Source: Cyanobacteriota bacterium (GTDB lineage: Bacteria > Cyanobacteriota > Cyanobacteriia > PCC-6307 > Cyanobiaceae). Taken from it: 35,865 nt of DNA. Positions within the stretch are counted from its first letter, which is position 1. The number at the start of each line of letters is the position of its first letter. Location: positions 1-35,865 of the forward strand of contig JAPLID010000170.1 of the NCBI GenBank assembly GCA_026389285.1, given 5' to 3'. Positions 5,737 through 32,976 of the stretch are shown piece by piece. A program made the position numbers and the translations under genes. The notes below the pieces were generated by a model, which was given only the letters and a program-made list of their open reading frames with translations, made no database searches and was not told where the DNA came from.

Positions 5737-6870
5737 TCACACGAGCAGGGCCACCTCGACGCAAAGGCCCGGCCCGAAGGCCATCGCCAGGCAGGGGCCG
5801 GTAGCGCCGCTGCGCCGCAAGCGCTCAAGGATGAACAGCAAGGTCGGCGAGGACATGTTGCCGCAGTCCCGCAGCACCGAGCGGGAGGGCTCGATCAGGG
5901 CGGGATCGAGCCCCAGGCTCTCCGTCACCGCCGAGAGGATGCGGGGGCCTCCGGGATGCACCGCCCAGCAACCGATGGCCGCGAGCGTGAACCCTTGCTT
6001 TGCCAGCCACCGTTCCAGCCAGGGCCTCAGATGCTCGGCAATCAGATCGGGAACCTGGGGGGACAGACCCATGACGAAGCCGTGATCCTCGATCGCCCAG
6101 GACATGGCGCCGGAGCTGGCGGGCACCAGCAGCGAACCGCTGGCGATCAGTCGCCGCAGCCCCGGCGCGGCCGGAGCCGCGATTGCCGACAGCTTCGTTG
6201 CCGACATCTCGGTTGACGGCGCCCCAACGGAAGCCACCAGGGCGGCGGCGCCGTCGGCGAACAGGGCATTGGCCACGATCCGCTCCCCCTCCCAGCCGTA
6301 CTGCAGATGCAGGCTGCAGAGTTCAACCGCGCAGAGCAGCACGCAGGCCCCGGGATCGGCGCCGGTGAAGCCGGCCGCCACCCGCAGACCGTTGAGGGCG
6401 GCGTGACACCCCATGAAGCCCACGTGGGTGCGGGCCACGTCAGCGGGCAGCGGCAGGGCGGCCATCAGGGCAAGATCGACGCCCGGGGCATGGAAGCCGG
6501 TGCAGGAAACCGTGATCAGATGGGTGATCCGTTCGGGGGGAACCTGCGCCTGCTCCAGGGCCGCCCGCACGGCCCGCAGGGCGAGGGGCGGGGCCTCCTG
6601 GCTGTAGCGGCGCATGCGCTCGCCGGTGCCGGGGCTGGTGGGGCCGAAAAAGCTCTGCTCACTGCCGGAGTTCAGGCCGGTGAGGTCCTCCAGCACGACG
6701 TGGCGTGCGCCGACCCCCGAACGGCGATGCAGGGTCTCCAGCAGCCGGTATCTGGAGGGGGAAGGCACCTGCTCGGGCAGGGCCACCCGGGCCGCAATCG
6801 CCGTGGCATCCCCCTGGTTGAGGCGATGGGGGGGCAGGGCCGTGCCCAGGCCGTGAATCGTCAGGGACAT
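5737..6870 (-). CDS. Type III polyketide synthase (chalcone/stilbene synthase family)
   Basis: Contains the C-H-N triad contexts: TVSCTGFHAPGVD, CWAVHPGGPRIL, RDCGNMSSPTLLF. Confidence 0.93.
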   Translation of the reverse strand: MSLTIHGLGTALPPHRLNQGDATAIAARVALPEQVPSPSRYRLLETLHRRSGVGARHVVLEDLTGLNSGSEQSFFGPTSPGTGERMRRYSQEAPPLALRAVRAALEQAQVPPERITHLITVSCTGFHAPGVDLALMAALPLPADVARTHVGFMGCHAALNGLRVAAGFTGADPGACVLLCAVELCSLHLQYGWEGERIVANALFADGAAALVASVGAPSTEMSATKLSAIAAPAAPGLRRLIASGSLLVPASSGAMSWAIEDHGFVMGLSPQVPDLIAEHLRPWLERWLAKQGFTLAAIGCWAVHPGGPRILSAVTESLGLDPALIEPSRSVLRDCGNMSSPTLLFILERLRRSGATGPCLAMAFGPGLCVEVALLV

Positions 6871-8015
6871 GGCTCTGGGGTGCTCCGTTGCAGGGTGGCA
6901 CCATCGAGATGCTGGAGCAGGGGTGCGGCCGCGGCCGGCCAGCGCCCGGCCGCGGCCAGCAGGGTCCGGCTCAGGCCGGGTCGCCGCAGGGCGAAGGCCA
7001 GGCCATGGCAGAAGCGCTGCCGCGTCCCGATCCGCAGCGCATGGCGGCGGGCCCATTGCCGCTCGAGCCCCCGGCTCCACTCGCTTTGCCCCTGCAGCAC
7101 CAGGGGTACGACCGCCAGAGCCCCCACCAGGGCCCAGCCCATGCCCTCGCCGGTGAACGGCTCCACATAGCCGGCGGCATCACCCAGCAACAGCAACCGC
7201 TCGGCGGCTGGGGGCGTGCTGCGGCGGGTGAGGGCCGGGGTGGCCCGCCAAGGCGCAGCAGCAAGCTGGGGGAGCGGATCGAAGCCAGCTTCGGCCAGCA
7301 CGTCGGCGGCGCTGGCGGCTGGACCGCCGGCCGCGATCAGCTGGGGCCGATCGAAGGCTGCCGCCAGGTTGAGCGCGCCCGCTTCGTTGCGCACCAGGCC
7401 CACGTAGCCATGGCGGCCGATGGCCATGTGAATCGTGCCCCCGCCGTAGCCCTTCACGCCGGCATCCAGCTCGCAACCGGCGCCGATCCTGGCCCGGGGG
7501 TTGATCCGCATCCGGATCGGCAGATCGGCGGCCAGGCCGGGACTGCCCAGCCCCGTGGCCACCAGCACGACCCTGGCACTGGTGGTCTGAAGCCCGGCAC
7601 CGGAGCGCAACAGCACCTCCCGGCCCCCGGGACAGGTCCCAGCCACGGTGGCTTCGGTCTGCGCGTACAACACGGCGCCAGCGGCGACGGCGGCCTCGCT
7701 CAAGGCCAGGTCAAGGCGGCCCCGGGACAAAGAGCGGCCCGCCGGCAGGGCGAGCTCCACCTGAAGACCTGGCAGGCCGAGGCGGATGCGCTCCAGGGAA
7801 GCCGCCCCAAGGTCATCGACCAGATGGCCCAGTCCCGCCTGCTCCAGGGCCCTGAGGGCCACGCCATTAAGGCAGCTGCCGCAGATCTTCCAGCGAGGAA
7901 AGGCCCGCTTCTCCACCAGCAGCACCCGCAGGCGGTAAGACGCCAACTGGTGGGCGGCCAGGGCACCGGCGGGTCCGGCGCCGATCACGATCACGTCCCA
8001 GTCCGGAGCGCTCAT
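6861..8015 (-). CDS. FAD-dependent oxidoreductase (geranylgeranyl-reductase / hydroxylase-like)
   Basis: MSAPDWDVIVIGAGPAGALAAHQLASYRLRVLLVEKRAFPRWKICGSCLNGVALRAL plus LLLGDAAGYVEPFTGEGMGWALVGAL. Confidence 0.9.
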   Translation of the reverse strand: MSAPDWDVIVIGAGPAGALAAHQLASYRLRVLLVEKRAFPRWKICGSCLNGVALRALEQAGLGHLVDDLGAASLERIRLGLPGLQVELALPAGRSLSRGRLDLALSEAAVAAGAVLYAQTEATVAGTCPGGREVLLRSGAGLQTTSARVVLVATGLGSPGLAADLPIRMRINPRARIGAGCELDAGVKGYGGGTIHMAIGRHGYVGLVRNEAGALNLAAAFDRPQLIAAGGPAASAADVLAEAGFDPLPQLAAAPWRATPALTRRSTPPAAERLLLLGDAAGYVEPFTGEGMGWALVGALAVVPLVLQGQSEWSRGLERQWARRHALRIGTRQRFCHGLAFALRRPGLSRTLLAAAGRWPAAAAPLLQHLDGATLQRSTPEPCP

Positions 8016-8746
8016 CGATCCTGGGGCAGGCCGTCCGGACGGTGCCAGCACAGCACGTAGCGCTCGGGCCAGCTGCGCCGGAGATCGGCCCCCACGAGGC
8101 CCGCCCGGACCGCCAGGGCCCGCACCTCCGCCAACTGAAAAGCGCCCTGCACCGAGACCGGGCCATCGAAATGAACGATCGGGGAGCGACTCAGCAAGCG
8201 GCAGCCCGCCCAGGCCAGCCCATAGCCCAGGGGACTACGGATCAGGTCATTAACCAACACCAGGCCACGGCTGACACGACCCATCCGCCCCAGCAGATCC
8301 ACCGCCTCCGGCTCGTCGAGATGGTGCAAGAACAGGGTGCAGAGAATGACGTCGTAGTCGTCGGGCAGGGGATCGTTGAGGGCATCAAGCTGAAAGAAAC
8401 TGGCGCCCAGTCCCCGCTCCTCGGCGCTGCGGGCGGCGATGGCCACCGCCTGCGCACTGAGATCGCAACCGTCGACCCGGAGGTCGAGTCCTGCGCGGAG
8501 GGCCCGTTCCGCCAGAGCGGTGGTGTTGTCGCCGCCGCCGCAGGCCAGATCCAGCACCCGCAGGGGGCGCCCGGAGCGCTCGCGGGCCAGGGAACGGATC
8601 GGAGCCAACAGGGAGCCAACGGCGCCGCTGAAGGCGTTGATCCGGCGCAGACCCTGCAGGGCCTGGCTATGGGCGACGGGATCAATGCCGGGCTGATCCA
8701 TCCACTCGGGTTGCCGGTGGCGCTGGGCCAGTGGCTGGGGAAGCAT
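8012..8746 (-). CDS. Class I SAM-dependent methyltransferase
   Basis: RVLDLACGGGDNTTALAERAL..., DYDVILCTLFLHHLDEPEAVDLL; ATGA overlap with the downstream flavoprotein gene. Confidence 0.9.
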   Translation of the reverse strand: MLPQPLAQRHRQPEWMDQPGIDPVAHSQALQGLRRINAFSGAVGSLLAPIRSLARERSGRPLRVLDLACGGGDNTTALAERALRAGLDLRVDGCDLSAQAVAIAARSAEERGLGASFFQLDALNDPLPDDYDVILCTLFLHHLDEPEAVDLLGRMGRVSRGLVLVNDLIRSPLGYGLAWAGCRLLSRSPIVHFDGPVSVQGAFQLAEVRALAVRAGLVGADLRRSWPERYVLCWHRPDGLPQDR

Positions 8747-8890
8747 TAAGGGAGAACGCGGAGAAAGAAGAGGCCGGGGCAGCGAAATGGGCTCGAGCAG
8801 GTCCGTGGCTCTGGATATTGACGCTAAGGCCGCTTCCAGGATCCGTTGCCGGAAAAGATCAGCCCTGGCCTGGAACACGGCCTGGGCATC

Positions 8891-25420: not shown

Positions 25421-26468
25421 TTAGTTGCGGTTGTAATTCCCCAGATAAAAGAACGTTGAACCCAGTGAACTGAGCGGAGCAACCACCTGGTTGATCAGAT
25501 CGACAGCTTTACCATAATAACTACGCCTTACAATGATCATGTCGCGATCCCGGAGGGGTGGATTGAACCCCTTGGAAATATCTTGGCCAGGTTGATAGCT
25601 ATAATATTCAGTGGTGGTGGTGCCATTGCGATTGAGGCGCACCAGTTCGATATTGGTTTTTTTGGCACGCCAGGGAACCGGACCACCGGCGCGCAGTAGG
25701 GCCTCTTGGAGAGGCGTATTGGCAGGGACCGCCAAGGTTCCTGGCGATTTCACCTCACCAACCATGGTCACACTAATGGAGGTCGGTGAGAGATTGGAGA
25801 GGCCGATCTGGATCACTTCGCTCGGTACAGGAGTCTCCGATCGCGTGACGATGACCGTGTCGCCATCGAACAGAATCGGGTTCTGGCGCTGATTGCCCGC
25901 CTGAAGCAACTGGGCAAGATCCAGAACGGTCTGCTTCTCGAAGCCGCCGGAGCCTGCGGGGCGCCTCAAAACGATCTTGCGGATGTCGGCATTGAGGGTG
26001 ATGCCTCCAGCCGTCTGGATCGCTGAAACGGGGGTGGAATACGAGGGGAGCGGATAAAGGCCGGGACGTCCCACTTCACCGAGCACGCTCACCTGAACCG
26101 GGCGTGGCCTGATCAGGTTGAGGTTGAGCTGGGGTCGGACCAGCTGCTTGCCGTAGAGGGAGGTGAGCCAGCGACTGGCCTGGCCGAGGGTGAGGCCGGT
26201 GAGCTGCACCGATCCCAGGCACATATAGGTCGCTGTAGACACTCGGCAGGGAGAGGCGCTCCACAACTGCAGGTCGGGAGAGAGCCGACCCGGCCAGACC
26301 CTGACCCTGTGAAATGGCCTGGGCGATGGTCAGGTCGACGGGCCGTCCTGAGGAGGTTTGCGGCTGATCCGCCCGCAGCGGCAACAAAGGTGTGAGCGCG
26401 AGCAGTGCGCCCAGCGCAACAGCCCCCGGGGCCCTGGACTTGAGACGGAGAAAAAGTGGATGCGTCAT
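25421..26468 (-). pseudogene. Wza-like polysaccharide export protein (SLBB repeats), disrupted by deletion/frameshift in the N-terminal export domain
   Basis: N-part MTHPLFLRLKSRAPGAVALGALLALTPLLPLRADQPQTSSGRPVDLTIAQAISQGQGLAGSALSRPAVVERLSLPSVYSDLY (frame of 26076..26546). C-part (Y)MCLGSVQLTGLTLGQASRWLTSLYGKQLVRPQLNLNLIRPRPVQVSVLGEVGRPGLYPL... (frame of 25421..26266). The frames switch near 26220-26240. Confidence 0.75.
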
Positions 26469-26650: not shown

Positions 26651-29299
26651 ATGCGCAGAATGCTCCCCTCGGACGTCATCTCTGATTCAGCGTCCGTTCC
26701 GGGTAGGAGCGGAACCCTGTCGGCCAGGGATCCAGCCGCTCTGATGTCCCAGAGTCCTGCCCAGGTCAGCGCCAACCCGTTTGATCCCCAATCCTTCATT
26801 TCGCCGCTCGCCGGCGGTCAGGAATCCGGCGGCGCTGGCCTGGGAGGTCTCATCCGAACCGTCAAGCGGCGCCAGGGCCTGTTTTTGTTCACGTTTGCGG
26901 TGGTCACCGGAGCACTGGCGATCAACACCCTGCGACAGCGCATCTTCTCGCCGGTCTACGAGGGCGGCTTCCAGATGCAGATCACCAACCCCTTCGAAGG
27001 ACGGGCCGGCAGCGGAGGTGCCAGTGGCTCTTCTGTTGAGGCTCTGGCCCGCAGCAACTTCAACTTTGATGTGCCAAGCCTGGTGGTGCTGCTGCGCAGC
27101 CCCCTGCTGATCAAGCCCATTGCCGAAAAAGAGGGAGTCGGTGTCGGCGCAGTGGTTGAGAATCTTTCCGTCGGCGCTGCTTCAGAAACCGTTCAAAACG
27201 TGCTGAACGTTTCCCTGCGTTGGTCCGACCCAATCAAAGGACGGGCCATTCTCAATCAGCTTTCCCAGGCATACACACGATTTTCGCTGACCCAGCGCCA
27301 AGCGGCGATGGCATCAGGAGTGAAATTCCTGGATCAGCAGGCCCCAGACATCATGCGTCGGGTGGAGGGACTTCAGAATGAGATGCTGAATTTCCGCAAG
27401 CGTAATAACAACCTCGATCCAGCGGACAATGCAAAAAGTATTCTTGGGGCACGCGAAGGTCTGATCGGTAATTTGCGAGAGTTGCAAAACCAGCAAGTGC
27501 AGCTCACTAGTCAGCTGGCCTCTATTCAATCCGGCAAGTTGCAATGGAATCCAAGTGGTGCACCAACGGCGATTGAGCAACTGGGGCGTTCAGGTGTGCT
27601 GGTGCCTGGCAGGGGAGATGGAGCCGAAGTGGCCAGGGGAATCAATACCCCATTAGAACAATTCAATAAATTTGAAACCGACCTGGCTGATGCCAGAGCC
27701 ACGTATCGCGAAGATTCGCCGATTGTTCAATCAATTCTCGCCCGCCGCAACAGGCTTCTGCCCGTTGTCCAGCGCCAAGGCGCCGATCGCGTGCGCGCTG
27801 ATTTGTTAGCCAACGTTGCTCAGCAAGATGAGATCAATCGTCAGATCATGTTGCTGAACGAGAACTTCCGCAATAATCCCACCAAGATGAAGGAGTTTGA
27901 CGACCTTCAACAGCGTCTGTCGATCGCCCGTGAACATTATTCTTCGTACATCCAGGCTCGCGAAAACTTCCGCCTTGAACTCGCTAGGTCCACGTCACCC
28001 TGGCAAGTGATCAGCCCGCCCGAGTTCGCCGATCTTCCAGTGGAACCCAACCTTCAGAAGAACTTGTTGCGAGCTCTGATGATTGGTTTGTTGGCCGGCC
28101 TTGGGGCAGCAGTTCTTCGTGAGCGCACTGACAACGTTTTCCACACGCCAATGGATGCGGAACGGGAACTTCAACTTCCCGTGCTCGGTCTGATTCCCTA
28201 CCTACCCCTGGAGCCAGGTGTGGAAATCTCCAGCAGCATCGCGAAGATGTCAGCCAGCGAGCGCTTCGCCATCAAGGAATCTTTGCGCAGCCTGTTCACC
28301 ACCTTCCGGCTGCTGCGGGCTGACCGCAACATCCGCATGGTCGGCGTGACCTCCTCGACGCAGGGGGAAGGTAAATCCACCGCTGTCACGATCTTTGCCC
28401 GCACGCTCTCTGATCTGGGCTTGAAGGTGCTGATTGTCGACGCCGACATGCGCTTACCCATGCAGGCTCGCTACCTCGGTGTCGAGCAGGGCGAGGGACT
28501 TTCGACCCTGCTTTCGGATTCCAAAGCGAAGGCTGCCGAGCTGATTCGGAACGTCTCCGACAACTTTGACCTACTCCCATCCGGACCGAAGCCTCCGGAC
28601 CCAGCCAAGCTTCTCAATTCAAGCCGCTGCCAGGAGGTGGTCGATGAGGTGCGAGCCCTACCCGGTTACGACATTGTTCTTTGGGATGCTCCACCCTGCC
28701 TGATGCTCTCCGACCCGATCCTGCTGGGCGAAAAGCTTGATGGCATTCTCTTCCTTGTCGGCCTCGGCAAAGTGAGTCGCGAACTGGCTCCCCAGGCCTG
28801 TCGCCGCATCAAGGCCACCGGTGTGGATGTGCTCGGCCTGATCTGCAACCAGGTGTCCTTCCCAAGTCGACTCAACGACTACGGCTACGAATACGGTTAT
28901 TACTATCACTATGCTTATGCCGGAGCCTATGGCAGGGAAGGAAAAGAATACGGCAAATACGGTCGCGGCCTGAAGGGCTACATCAAGCGTTATCGCGATT
29001 CCTATCTGCGTGGGGGCTATGCCGGTTCCTACGCCAAAAACTCCTATCGAAACTCCTACGTTGCCAGCAACTATGTTCGCGATGGTCATGTTGCCCAGTC
29101 CTATCAGGATGCTGCTGTCAGTGATAGCAATGGCAATGGATCCGGGAGCGGTAAGAGCATGAGTTCATCCATGGATGCTCGGAAATCTCAAGGAATCGGC
29201 GTCAGCGAAGATCAACCCAGAACCAGGCGCTCAAACGGTCCTTTGGGATGGATTGGACGGCGCCTTCCTTGGCCCTTCGGCCGCAAACCGAAATCTTGA
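26651..29299 (+). CDS. Wzc-like polysaccharide biosynthesis tyrosine autokinase (BY-kinase) with Tyr-rich tail
   Basis: Wzz-type N-domain; Walker A GVTSSTQGEGKSTAV, A' KVLIVDADMRLP, B IVLWDAPP; C-terminal Tyr cluster. ATG at 26744 (MSQSPAQVSANPFDPQ) is an alternative start. Confidence 0.92.
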   Translation: MRRMLPSDVISDSASVPGRSGTLSARDPAALMSQSPAQVSANPFDPQSFISPLAGGQESGGAGLGGLIRTVKRRQGLFLFTFAVVTGALAINTLRQRIFSPVYEGGFQMQITNPFEGRAGSGGASGSSVEALARSNFNFDVPSLVVLLRSPLLIKPIAEKEGVGVGAVVENLSVGAASETVQNVLNVSLRWSDPIKGRAILNQLSQAYTRFSLTQRQAAMASGVKFLDQQAPDIMRRVEGLQNEMLNFRKRNNNLDPADNAKSILGAREGLIGNLRELQNQQVQLTSQLASIQSGKLQWNPSGAPTAIEQLGRSGVLVPGRGDGAEVARGINTPLEQFNKFETDLADARATYREDSPIVQSILARRNRLLPVVQRQGADRVRADLLANVAQQDEINRQIMLLNENFRNNPTKMKEFDDLQQRLSIAREHYSSYIQARENFRLELARSTSPWQVISPPEFADLPVEPNLQKNLLRALMIGLLAGLGAAVLRERTDNVFHTPMDAERELQLPVLGLIPYLPLEPGVEISSSIAKMSASERFAIKESLRSLFTTFRLLRADRNIRMVGVTSSTQGEGKSTAVTIFARTLSDLGLKVLIVDADMRLPMQARYLGVEQGEGLSTLLSDSKAKAAELIRNVSDNFDLLPSGPKPPDPAKLLNSSRCQEVVDEVRALPGYDIVLWDAPPCLMLSDPILLGEKLDGILFLVGLGKVSRELAPQACRRIKATGVDVLGLICNQVSFPSRLNDYGYEYGYYYHYAYAGAYGREGKEYGKYGRGLKGYIKRYRDSYLRGGYAGSYAKNSYRNSYVASNYVRDGHVAQSYQDAAVSDSNGNGSGSGKSMSSSMDARKSQGIGVSEDQPRTRRSNGPLGWIGRRLPWPFGRKPKS

Positions 29300-29318: not shown

Positions 29319-29843
29319 TCAAGAGTTTCTGAGCACCTGGTCCATCAATTCAAGATGCTCGTAAATCGGTGAAGCAGGAGGGTGGCAGCGTCGCACCCAA
29401 TCCAGAGCGGCATACAGATCAATTCGACGGCTGCGCGCCGTGAGACCGACAGCCAGAAGCGGCGAACGTTCAATGCCGGCAAAACAGTGCAGATAGATCG
29501 GTGCGCCTTGCTCCATCAGTTGCTCCGCAGCCGTAAGAGCTTCGATCAGGCGCTCCGATCGAAGAACTTCCTGCTTGCGGTGATCGGGAAGAGACACGCC
29601 AGCGCTGATCCAACCTGGGGGAGGCAGCAACATTTCCTTCTCCTCCGGATAGCAACAACTGAAACGTCCACGCAGACCGGCCGCCTCCAGTTGCTGCCAA
29701 TGAAAAGGAGTGATGGGGCGGGGACCGATCGCCAATTGGTTGGTGAGAATCCAGCTGTAAGGGAGGGGTGGTCCTGAAGGCGCAACTGAGGCAACAACGG
29801 ATTGCGGCTGACCAAGCCAGCGCCATAGGGGATTCAGGATCAT
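29319..29843 (-). CDS. Dual-specificity/tyrosine-type Cys phosphatase
   Basis: P-loop HCFAGIERSPLLA (HCx5RS); LAIGPRPITPFHWQQLEAAGLRGRFSCCYPEE. ATGA overlap with the upstream gene. Confidence 0.82.
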   Translation of the reverse strand: MILNPLWRWLGQPQSVVASVAPSGPPLPYSWILTNQLAIGPRPITPFHWQQLEAAGLRGRFSCCYPEEKEMLLPPPGWISAGVSLPDHRKQEVLRSERLIEALTAAEQLMEQGAPIYLHCFAGIERSPLLAVGLTARSRRIDLYAALDWVRRCHPPASPIYEHLELMDQVLRNS

Positions 29844-30517
29844 CGCCTGGAAAAATCCTGCAGGTTGGAGGAAACACTTGCCAGAACCTGGCGCCAGATC
29901 GCGACAGGAGGAGGGTTCTTGTTCTGACTGCGAAGGCTGACCAGAATGCAACCAAAGCTGCGGGTCGGCTGCAGACCTATGAGCCCCTTGAGTGTCTCAA
30001 TCCGACCAGCGACACGCTGATCTGCAGCCTTCCCCAGCGCCTGTGCAGTAACGGCCATGCCATCAGGAGTAAAGATCTCGGGGACAAGACAAGATTGGTA
30101 AGACTGCCTCCCCTGAATCAATCCAGCGACGCTACCGGCCATCGGGACGTTGAGGCGACGTTTGGTCAATGCCAAATGAGGTCGATCACGGCCGATGAAA
30201 GCGGCCTGAAAGCTATCGCGCTGACGCACGCTGGCCCGGGCCAGACGCAGCTCCAGCCCTCCTGCCAACTGCCAGCCCAAAACGGCTGATAGAGACCGCT
30301 CATAGCTGCGTTCAGCGGGGAGGGTCGGCAGCGGCCTGGGATTGAGGCCAGCTTCTACAAGAGCTGTAGCCAGCCGGGCAGCCGCAAGATCTGGTGAACG
30401 GGGCCAGCGAGGCCATACCAGCGCCTGGAGAGCTGCGAGAGAAGCCACCAAAACCAGGAAACCGAGCCAGCGCTCCAAGAAAGGATGACGATCCCGCTCT
30501 ACCATTCCCTGACTCAT
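29840..30517 (-). CDS. Cyanoexosortase A system-associated protein
   Basis: N-terminal TM (ERWLGFLVLVASLAALQALVW) then an EpsI-like periplasmic domain; starts within the 3' end of the exosortase gene (4-nt overlap). Confidence 0.75.
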   Translation of the reverse strand: MSQGMVERDRHPFLERWLGFLVLVASLAALQALVWPRWPRSPDLAAARLATALVEAGLNPRPLPTLPAERSYERSLSAVLGWQLAGGLELRLARASVRQRDSFQAAFIGRDRPHLALTKRRLNVPMAGSVAGLIQGRQSYQSCLVPEIFTPDGMAVTAQALGKAADQRVAGRIETLKGLIGLQPTRSFGCILVSLRSQNKNPPPVAIWRQVLASVSSNLQDFSRR

Positions 30518-31563
30518 GACTCGGAATCCTCGAGAGCTGTGGGCTGGGGAGCCAACTCCCGTTCCAGAAGGTTGATGTAGAGCAATCCATAGACGAACAC
30601 CGCGACACCGGAGAACACCAGGGAGCCCGTTTCATCATGAAAAAAGGTGAACAACGGACTGCCCTTGCCCTGGCCAACACTGGCGCAGCCAGCAAGCAGT
30701 GCGATACGAATGGTGTTGGCGACCAGACCGATGGCTGGAGCAGCTGTGAACAGTAACAAGCGACTGACCCAGGAATTAATCCGGAACGCCAGCATGAAAA
30801 TCAGACCGACACAAAGAATCTGGGCCATCATGTCCAAGCCATTGCAGGCGGCCAGCACCTGCACACCACCACCAGGCAACATCACGCTGCGCCCTTCGAC
30901 CGCTACATCGAGACCCAGGATGGACAACCAGAAACCAGCTCCACGGGCTGTCAGCAAACTGAGGGGCTCCTCCGGCAACACACGCATCAACAGAGCGAAG
31001 GAAGGCAGCAGCAACAGGCAAAGGAGCGGATCGCGAAAACGACCTAGCTTTGAGAGCGGCAGACAGAGCAGCGAAAGGGCCAACCCCGCAAGCGGGGCAA
31101 GCATATAGATCAAGCCATCCCAATGAAGGATGACCGCTGTGCGTGCCAGGATCCAGAGCAACAGAGTCGAGCCGACCAGAAGTCCGAACAGTCCAGGACT
31201 CGGCTCCAGGTCATCGAGTTGATCCTCGATGCAGATCAGGGCACCGCCCCAGATCATCACGGCCAGCACGGTGACATTGGCCGACTGACTGGTATGAAAG
31301 ACCGCACTGTTCTGAGTTGCCACCAACAACGCCAGAAGCAGCCAGAGATTCCGCAGCGTCGGTGGTGGGATCGAAGGCAACCAGGATTGCAGGGAAGGAG
31401 GCAGTCGCTGACGCCAGGAATCTAGACGCCGATTGATCGGACCTACAGACAGGGAATGACGTGCCGGCGAACCGGTCGTGCTGAACCCTGGAGCTGAATC
31501 GTCAGCCGCTGACAAGGGCCCAGCAGACTGGGTCACAGAATCCGATCCTTGATCAACTGTCAC
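30514..31563 (-). CDS. crtA: Cyanoexosortase A
   Basis: Multi-TM; catalytic-type motifs VLAACNGLDMMAQ (Cys), GLVANTIRIALLAG (Arg), TFFHDETGSLVFSG (His). The symbol follows the exosortase family name, not carotenoid crtA. Confidence 0.9.
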   Translation of the reverse strand: MTVDQGSDSVTQSAGPLSAADDSAPGFSTTGSPARHSLSVGPINRRLDSWRQRLPPSLQSWLPSIPPPTLRNLWLLLALLVATQNSAVFHTSQSANVTVLAVMIWGGALICIEDQLDDLEPSPGLFGLLVGSTLLLWILARTAVILHWDGLIYMLAPLAGLALSLLCLPLSKLGRFRDPLLCLLLLPSFALLMRVLPEEPLSLLTARGAGFWLSILGLDVAVEGRSVMLPGGGVQVLAACNGLDMMAQILCVGLIFMLAFRINSWVSRLLLFTAAPAIGLVANTIRIALLAGCASVGQGKGSPLFTFFHDETGSLVFSGVAVFVYGLLYINLLERELAPQPTALEDSES

Positions 31564-31569
31564 AACAAC

Positions 31570-32976
31570 TCAACGCTTTGCTTGCATCCTGAGTTCGATT
31601 CCCAGAAAGTCTGCGCTCTGGGGAAGGGGCAAGGCATCAGGCTCAACTGGTGGAGCATAGGACTTCTGAAGCAGGGGGAGATGGCGGCACAGCAGGTCGG
31701 CATAAGCCTGCACGACCAGGGCAGGGGTGGCGGTCGCCTGCAGATAGCGACGGCCGGCCTCACCGAGCTGCCGAGCGCGGGCTGGATCCGCCGCCAGGGA
31801 TCGAATGAAGTCGGCCAGGGGTTGGGCCTCCCCGCTGGAGAAGGCACTGCCACAGCCGGCACGAGCAATTTCTGTACGCAGATAGGAATGGGGAGCGCAG
31901 ATCGCCGCCACGGGGGAGGCTGCAGCCAGATGGCCATAGAGCTTACTGGGGGCTACCTGACCCTCCGCGGCCTCAAGCAGGCTGACAATCGCCAGATCGC
32001 CTGCAGCCAGGAGCTCAGGTAGGACTTGGACATCCTGATAGGGCAGAAAACGCACATTCGAAAGCCCCCAGGCCTCGGCCTGCTCCACCAAAAAGTGATG
32101 CTGGGCTCCGCCTCCGACGATCAACACTTGGATGAGGGAATCATGGCGCAGTAGCCTGGCTGCTTCGAGGAGAGTGTCCAGGTCGTGACAGCGTCCCTGG
32201 TTGCCGGAATAGAGAACGGTGAAGCCTTCGCTGAGCCGGTGGGTCTGAACAAAACTGTTCTGAGGTTTGGGAATCGGCGTGATGGCAGCAGGATCGGCCC
32301 AGCTGGGGATCACCGTGATCGGGGTGAGAAATTCTGGATAGTTCCTGCGGAGATGGTCCTGCATGGTGGTGCTGAGGACCACAATTTCAGAGGCAGCCGC
32401 GAAGCTGCTGGCCTGTAGAAGGCGCCAGAGACGGGCAACCGGATGATCGGCTGCCACGACGCCAAGCGAGATCGCAATGTCCGGATACAGGTCGTAGACC
32501 AGGACCACGTAGGGCGCGCGAGTGAGCAAATGGCATAGCCAACCGACGATCGGTAGGTAGGCCGGCTCGGTGGTGAACAGCAGCAGATCACCGCGCCGGC
32601 CCTGGCGCAGCAGCCGCAGCAGAGTGCGCAGACAGAACAGCAGGCTGTTGACCACTCGGCCACGAATGCGCTCGGGCCAGAAGCGGGAGGTGGAGGTGCG
32701 TCGAATGCAGCGGTTGGGCAGGAACTCAATGCGCTCGGCCTGCTGCGCCTGGAAGGCGTAGCCGGGCTGACCGGTCAGCACCAGATTCTGCAGGCCCCGT
32801 TCGGCCAGCCTCCGCGACAGATCCTCGATGAACTGGCCCGTGGCGGCGAAATCGGGGGGAAAGTACTGGGAGACGATGGTGAGACGGGCCAGCCGTGAGC
32901 GCTCATCCCGCCATCGCAGGCGATCCGCCAGCTTTCGCAGGGGGAGGCGGGAGGAGAGGGCGAACCAAGGCATCAA
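31570..32976 (-). CDS. Glycosyltransferase family 4 (GT-B)
   Basis: LTIVSQYFPPDFAATGQFIEDLSRRLAERG..., FTVLYSGNQGRCHDLDTLLEAARLL, LEAAEGQVAPSKLYGHLAAASPVAA. Confidence 0.9.
   Translation of the reverse strand: MMPWFALSSRLPLRKLADRLRWRDERSRLARLTIVSQYFPPDFAATGQFIEDLSRRLAERGLQNLVLTGQPGYAFQAQQAERIEFLPNRCIRRTSTSRFWPERIRGRVVNSLLFCLRTLLRLLRQGRRGDLLLFTTEPAYLPIVGWLCHLLTRAPYVVLVYDLYPDIAISLGVVAADHPVARLWRLLQASSFAAASEIVVLSTTMQDHLRRNYPEFLTPITVIPSWADPAAITPIPKPQNSFVQTHRLSEGFTVLYSGNQGRCHDLDTLLEAARLLRHDSLIQVLIVGGGAQHHFLVEQAEAWGLSNVRFLPYQDVQVLPELLAAGDLAIVSLLEAAEGQVAPSKLYGHLAAASPVAAICAPHSYLRTEIARAGCGSAFSSGEAQPLADFIRSLAADPARARQLGEAGRRYLQATATPALVVQAYADLLCRHLPLLQKSYAPPVEPDALPLPQSADFLGIELRMQAKR

Follow-up and report, generated by a model that had tools for sequence, protein, structure and literature searches.

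We consider it reasonably probable that the locus described here, part of a 35,865-nucleotide window (the whole stretch of Cyanobiaceae DNA analysed), encodes a cell-surface module in which a kinase/phosphatase unit for exopolysaccharide (EPS) export would be joined to a CrtA-derived exosortase reading a genus-specific PGP sorting signal. This signal was missed in the preliminary description of the locus, and is more unusual than the phosphatase-bearing exosortase operon reported there. The locus comprises the following features:

25421–26266, minus strand: SLBB-domain polysaccharide export (Wza-type) protein (PF10531 1e-23, PF22461), co-conserved; its true start may be upstream
26651–29299, plus strand: Wzc-type BY-kinase (PCP and ATPase) with a Tyr-rich C-terminal tail (TIGR01007 110 bits); convergent with the phosphatase, beside which it is conserved
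29319–29843, minus strand: dual-specificity (DSP)-type protein phosphatase with the HCxAGxERS signature and an LPDHR general-acid loop (PF00782 26 bits)
29840–29843, minus strand: ATGA overlap of associated-protein stop and phosphatase start, seen in the sequence; in the genus otherwise only in G010
29840–30517, minus strand: exosortase-associated protein, one N-terminal TM helix and an alpha/beta domain, with invariant C143 and C190; no known family
30514–30517, minus strand: ATGA overlap of exosortase stop and associated-protein start, seen in the sequence; common in the genus
30514–31563, minus strand: exosortase of a divergent CrtA-like clade, catalytic C240 (CNG), R286 (NTIR) and H309 (FFH) (PF09721 1.1e-29; TIGR03763 107 bits)
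31570–32976, minus strand: WcaI-type glycosyltransferase upstream of the exosortase (NF007640 131 bits, under its cut-off of 276), outside the conserved core

A sequence check bore out the layout given in the preliminary description: the three operon genes are present with both 4-nt ATGA overlaps, and the 3' end of the Tyr-rich Wzc-type kinase gene lies 19 bp from the phosphatase stop, tail-to-tail. The kinase scores 110.2 bits against TIGR01007 (cut-off 108.05), and its Tyr-rich tail is apparent by sequence in the window and also in relatives. Linkage of the WcaI-type glycosyltransferase is seen in few genus members only, and promoter and terminator scans gave no result.

The phosphatase, exosortase and associated protein were found in nearly all of the 36 other genus genomes, with exosortase and phosphatase identities of roughly 50–86%. 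The order Wza-like protein, kinase, phosphatase, associated protein, exosortase is kept at all 30 phosphatase loci with readable context, and the kinase is convergent with the phosphatase, at a spacing of -10 to 272 bp, in 28/28 loci where the contig continues. Because the whole block is kept at this level of divergence, its arrangement is not due to chance; genus-level correlations represent in effect one clade, not independent events. The overlaps, from which translational coupling had been proposed, fare unequally: that between exosortase and associated protein is common in the genus (gaps at L123, L124, L130, L133 and L138, where exosortase starts are mis-called, were excluded), whereas that between associated protein and phosphatase occurs at only 2 of 30 loci, the two genes being mostly separated by 4–184 bp. 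Three species carry an HpsJ-like gene, absent from the window, between associated protein and phosphatase (L118 11526–12512, L119 4093–5082, L133 9143–10075), and the operon form in the window therefore appears reduced.

Motif alignment, the PF00782 match and a structure model uphold the earlier assignment of the phosphatase to the DSP fold rather than to the low-molecular-weight class (LMW-PTP). HCFAGIERS occupies residues 119–127 and a candidate general-acid Asp lies in LPDHR (85–89), both motifs being conserved among aligned relatives. The model (pLDDT 90.9) has DUSP23/VHZ as its best PDB match (2img, E 7e-11) and also matches PTPMT1 and archaeal Tk-PTP, with probability 1.0 for all three. 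As fold and motifs agree, we read the modelled protein as a probable divergent DSP despite a PF00782 score (26.0 bits, E 9e-6) below the gathering cut-off of 33.5. One of these matches, PTPMT1, acts on lipids, so the fold by itself does not tell which class of substrate the enzyme has. The sole LMW-PTP found in the genome from which the window comes is unlinked, on another contig, and a contig scan with the phosphatase alone returned a single distant Chloroflexi locus. One relative (G004) has a second copy of the phosphatase gene (37% identity) that immediately follows a Wza-like gene and has a second Wzc-type kinase nearby, with no exosortase within the 20 kb (L143 10132–15857).

To which partner the phosphatase belongs can be judged from a class survey of 146 genomes, 34 of which have the phosphatase and 48 a CrtA above cut-off. 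Outside the genus, canonical CrtA loci co-located with the phosphatase were found, among the matches listed, only in G059 and G160, both of family f24, in the order crtA, TIGR04153, HpsJ_A, phosphatase and with canonical CrtA scores (260–307 bits); in G059 the HpsJ and phosphatase genes beside the CrtA operon are separated by a transposase gene (NF041680; L145 10349–11662). The phosphatase is absent from all 20 CrtA loci fetched without regard to it, and no exosortase was detected in the 19.9-kb phosphatase locus of G111. The neighbourhood survey that the preliminary description had proposed as a check thus returns the phosphatase at none of these 20 loci but in an exosortase operon in two distant-family genomes.

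Of the 27 phosphatase loci lying outside the main cluster of the genus, two are linked to an exosortase, against 13 that have Wza or Wzc no more than about 10 kb away; the other 14, several of them on short contigs, show neither Wza nor Wzc within that distance. The phosphatase overlaps the kinase gene by 4 nt in L152 and L153 and is convergent with it in L151, L162 and L171. Wza and a clear Wzc are missing from 20 LMW-PTP loci. Taken together, 13/27 DSP loci with Wza/Wzc linkage versus 0/20 CrtA and 0/20 LMW-PTP loci give a pooled Fisher p=8e-7, treating as independent loci that are not entirely so, and leaving out a weak ATPase match at an LMW-PTP locus (L213, E 7e-7) and a weak match at a CrtA locus (L203, E 4e-5). 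On the strength of this linkage the phosphatase is best read as the predicted cognate, Wzb-equivalent phosphatase of the kinase. In the tree the genus phosphatases are sister, with moderate support (89/87), to kinase-linked DSPs of the same family. We read the phosphatase as having joined the exosortase operon in the genus lineage and separately in family f24, where two genomes show it. The mechanism put forward earlier, which tied protein sorting to tyrosine phosphorylation of the EPS machinery, is therefore half right: the kinase–phosphatase link is supported by context, and the block including the exosortase is a conserved genus trait but not a general exosortase system.

The exosortase itself, previously called cyanoexosortase A, matches PF09721 well (104 bits, GA 25.7) and has TIGR03763 as its nearest model, but at 107.2 bits (127 bits in a relative, G008) it falls below the curated cut-off of 150 and is not, by sequence score, a formal CrtA. 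All 26 genus and all 22 CrtA sequences compared keep the C240/R286/H309 triad, whereas positions next to it differ: CNG in the genus versus CSG in CrtA, R-I versus R-V, and FFH versus YWH. L142 with CSG and L137 with FWH are exceptions within the genus, and the extra genus exosortases all have FFH with CSG, CAG or CNG at the Cys motif, which makes FFH the more consistent marker. We hypothesize that the CSG/CNG and YWH/FFH differences, one clade against another, bear on specificity. The associated protein has no NCBIfam or Pfam match, and was found in 33 of 60 relatives searched, all 33 of this genus; a fold search with its model (pLDDT 87) gave no PDB match at E<=0.001. Homology to TIGR04153 was considered and is unsupported by profile comparison (hhalign probability 0.8%, E 0.07); a TIGR04153 search of the protein found nothing at E<=1.

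Substrates of this exosortase escape the standard PEP-CTERM model. PF07589 scored no protein above cut-off in any of the 37 genus genomes, while being positive in 13 of 24 genera searched, and at relaxed E its best weak matches in the genus were at the level of control noise. The idea of an exosortase lacking substrates was dropped once weak matches of the cyanobacterial model TIGR04155 turned out to be a single conserved C-terminal tail (VPGPLPxLGAGxAFGFSRxLRRR) on secreted-looking proteins. A profile HMM of this tail detects 2–49 copies in each of the 37 genus genomes, but none in 15 other genomes of the family and a weak match in one (G139) of 18 others. The genome from which the window comes has one exosortase match and 15 VPGPLP-type tails (C112:4196–4303, C173:10696–10806, C124:644–733, C73:34885–34971, C73:43222–43308 and others, L287–L293). 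Eight of these were read; Sec-like hydrophobic N-termini are present on the longer proteins, the bodies are mostly unrelated, and most tails score below the NCBIfam cut-offs, with three narrowly above. The tails fit a tripartite PEP-CTERM-like plan, with a PxP motif, a short hydrophobic helix and a C-terminal Arg cluster on secreted proteins. Among 60 tails, which were themselves collected with an HMM built from signals of this kind, the tripeptide is PGP in 53 (49 by script and the remaining four by eye), PSP in four and PAP in three, and PEP in none. The draft assemblies G005, G021 and G030 have signals, but no exosortase was found in them; in G030, with its 49 VPGPLP tails, the cause may be an assembly gap or another sorter. 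The VPGPLP string occurs in none of the biology papers searched, and literature searches on PEP-CTERM with Cyanobium and on HpsJ with exosortase returned nothing relevant.

We propose that the locus is a cell-surface module of two joined units. The first would be a polysaccharide export machine built from the Wza-like SLBB protein, the Wzc-like autokinase and its Tyr-rich tail and, in place of Wzb/LMW-PTP, the DSP-type phosphatase; this phosphatase would most likely remove phosphotyrosine from the kinase tail, so that the kinase cycles during chain export. The second would pair the CrtA-derived exosortase with the associated protein, itself anchored in the membrane. Secreted proteins bearing the VPGPLP tail, whose Gly (sometimes Ser or Ala) stands where PEP has its hallmark Glu, are probably what the exosortase cleaves and transfers, and the tagged proteins would thus be displayed on or with the exopolysaccharide, the two units being presumably co-regulated. 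A further step, which we advance tentatively and think rather unlikely, is that the active-site surroundings (CSG to CNG, YWH to FFH) co-changed with the shift from PEP to PGP, and that the recoded sorter joined the Wza/Wzc/DSP machine, such that polysaccharide export and protein anchoring would be switched together by Tyr phosphorylation.

Other explanations of the block have to be weighed against a two-unit module. It is possible, although on balance we doubt it, that the genes are merely clustered as in a loose EPS island, co-inheritance of surface genes being selected without any regulation joining the sorter to the kinase–phosphatase pair. The flanking glycosyltransferase and WcaF genes are indeed swapped between species, as is typical of EPS islands, and CrtA and DSP are mostly separate in other families; yet the core keeps its order, orientation and close spacing while these flanks vary. 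Alternatively, the phosphatase could serve the exosortase operon, acting on the exosortase, its partner or its substrates, with the kinase a mere neighbour. We regard this as unlikely, even though the genes share a strand and a 4-nt overlap in the window, are co-located in 30/30 genus loci and recur beside canonical CrtA, with hpsJ, in the two f24 genomes. Those two are the only linked canonical CrtA loci among the matches listed in the 146-genome sample, the phosphatase is missing from 20/20 CrtA loci, its overlap is kept in just 2/30, and outside the genus cluster it tracks Wza/Wzc. It also has no evident export signal and should therefore be cytoplasmic, whereas the exosortase reaction is generally placed on the periplasmic side.

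For the signal, a sceptical reading would take the VPGPLP tail as a genus-specific membrane tail, or as the tag of another sorting enzyme. Lack of the PEP glutamate, scores mostly under the curated PEP-CTERM cut-offs and the 49 signals of G030, where the exosortase was not found, are in its favour, but we hold it to be very improbable. The tail has the tripartite plan of PEP-CTERM, and its similarity to TIGR04155/TIGR02595 is weak but consistent; moreover, the genus-wide exosortase with its intact triad would otherwise be left with no known substrates, and the signals are absent from the 15 other family genomes, 14 of which have no exosortase among the matches listed.

The favoured two-unit module resembles several known systems. 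It shares with the cyanoexosortase A system (TIGR03763 CrtA, TIGR04153, NF050013 HpsJ-like A) an exosortase followed by a one-TM associated protein and sometimes an HpsJ-like gene, the catalytic Cys/Arg/His, and a large set of secreted substrates that end in a PxP-hydrophobic-Arg tail. It differs in its sub-cut-off exosortase, an associated protein not recognisable as TIGR04153, the lack of an HpsJ-like gene in the window, a PGP rather than a PEP tripeptide, CNG/FFH where CrtA has CSG/YWH, and the added phosphatase and Wza/Wzc neighbours. Synechocystis Wzc (Sll0923) and Wzb (Slr0328) form an EPS kinase–phosphatase pair, likewise a BY-kinase with a Tyr-rich tail and a cysteine-based tyrosine phosphatase acting in EPS production (PMC6562117); here, however, the linked phosphatase is DSP-fold and the LMW-PTP gene lies apart. 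A literature search on cyanobacterial dual-specificity phosphatases with Wzc gave nothing relevant, only the LMW-PTP Wzb being found described. The PEP-CTERM/EpsH system similarly combines an EPS-linked candidate transpeptidase, integral to the membrane, with numerous secreted substrates, but PEP is near-invariant in its description (PMC1569441), whereas all 60 tails inspected here have Gly, Ser or Ala for Glu. Cyanoexosortase B of Nostoc punctiforme is also tied to surface polysaccharide, but belongs to another exosortase class with PEP-CTERM substrates, and the main text of that paper mentions neither 'phosphatase' nor 'kinase' (PMC12188702).

Residue-level exosortase specificity is poorly understood, and a natural enzyme/signal pair without the hallmark Glu and with few co-changed active-site residues would open the recognition code to direct testing. 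A DSP-type Wzc-linked partner would extend the phosphatase classes in bacterial tyrosine-kinase control of EPS in cyanobacteria. The secreted-protein family, with 15 members in this genome, is probably under-recognised because standard PF07589 annotation scores none of its signals above cut-off in the genus.

A second divergent exosortase occurs in some species (L144 in G004; L321–L325 in G031, G036, G023 and G026). At L144 it comes with an associated protein, and three proteins encoded close by carry deviating versions of the signal tail, an arrangement suggestive of a second, dedicated system. Elsewhere in the window, type III polyketide synthase, FAD oxidoreductase and methyltransferase genes lie in a row (5737–8878), a layout reminiscent of a small biosynthetic cluster of the alkylresorcinol or quinone type.
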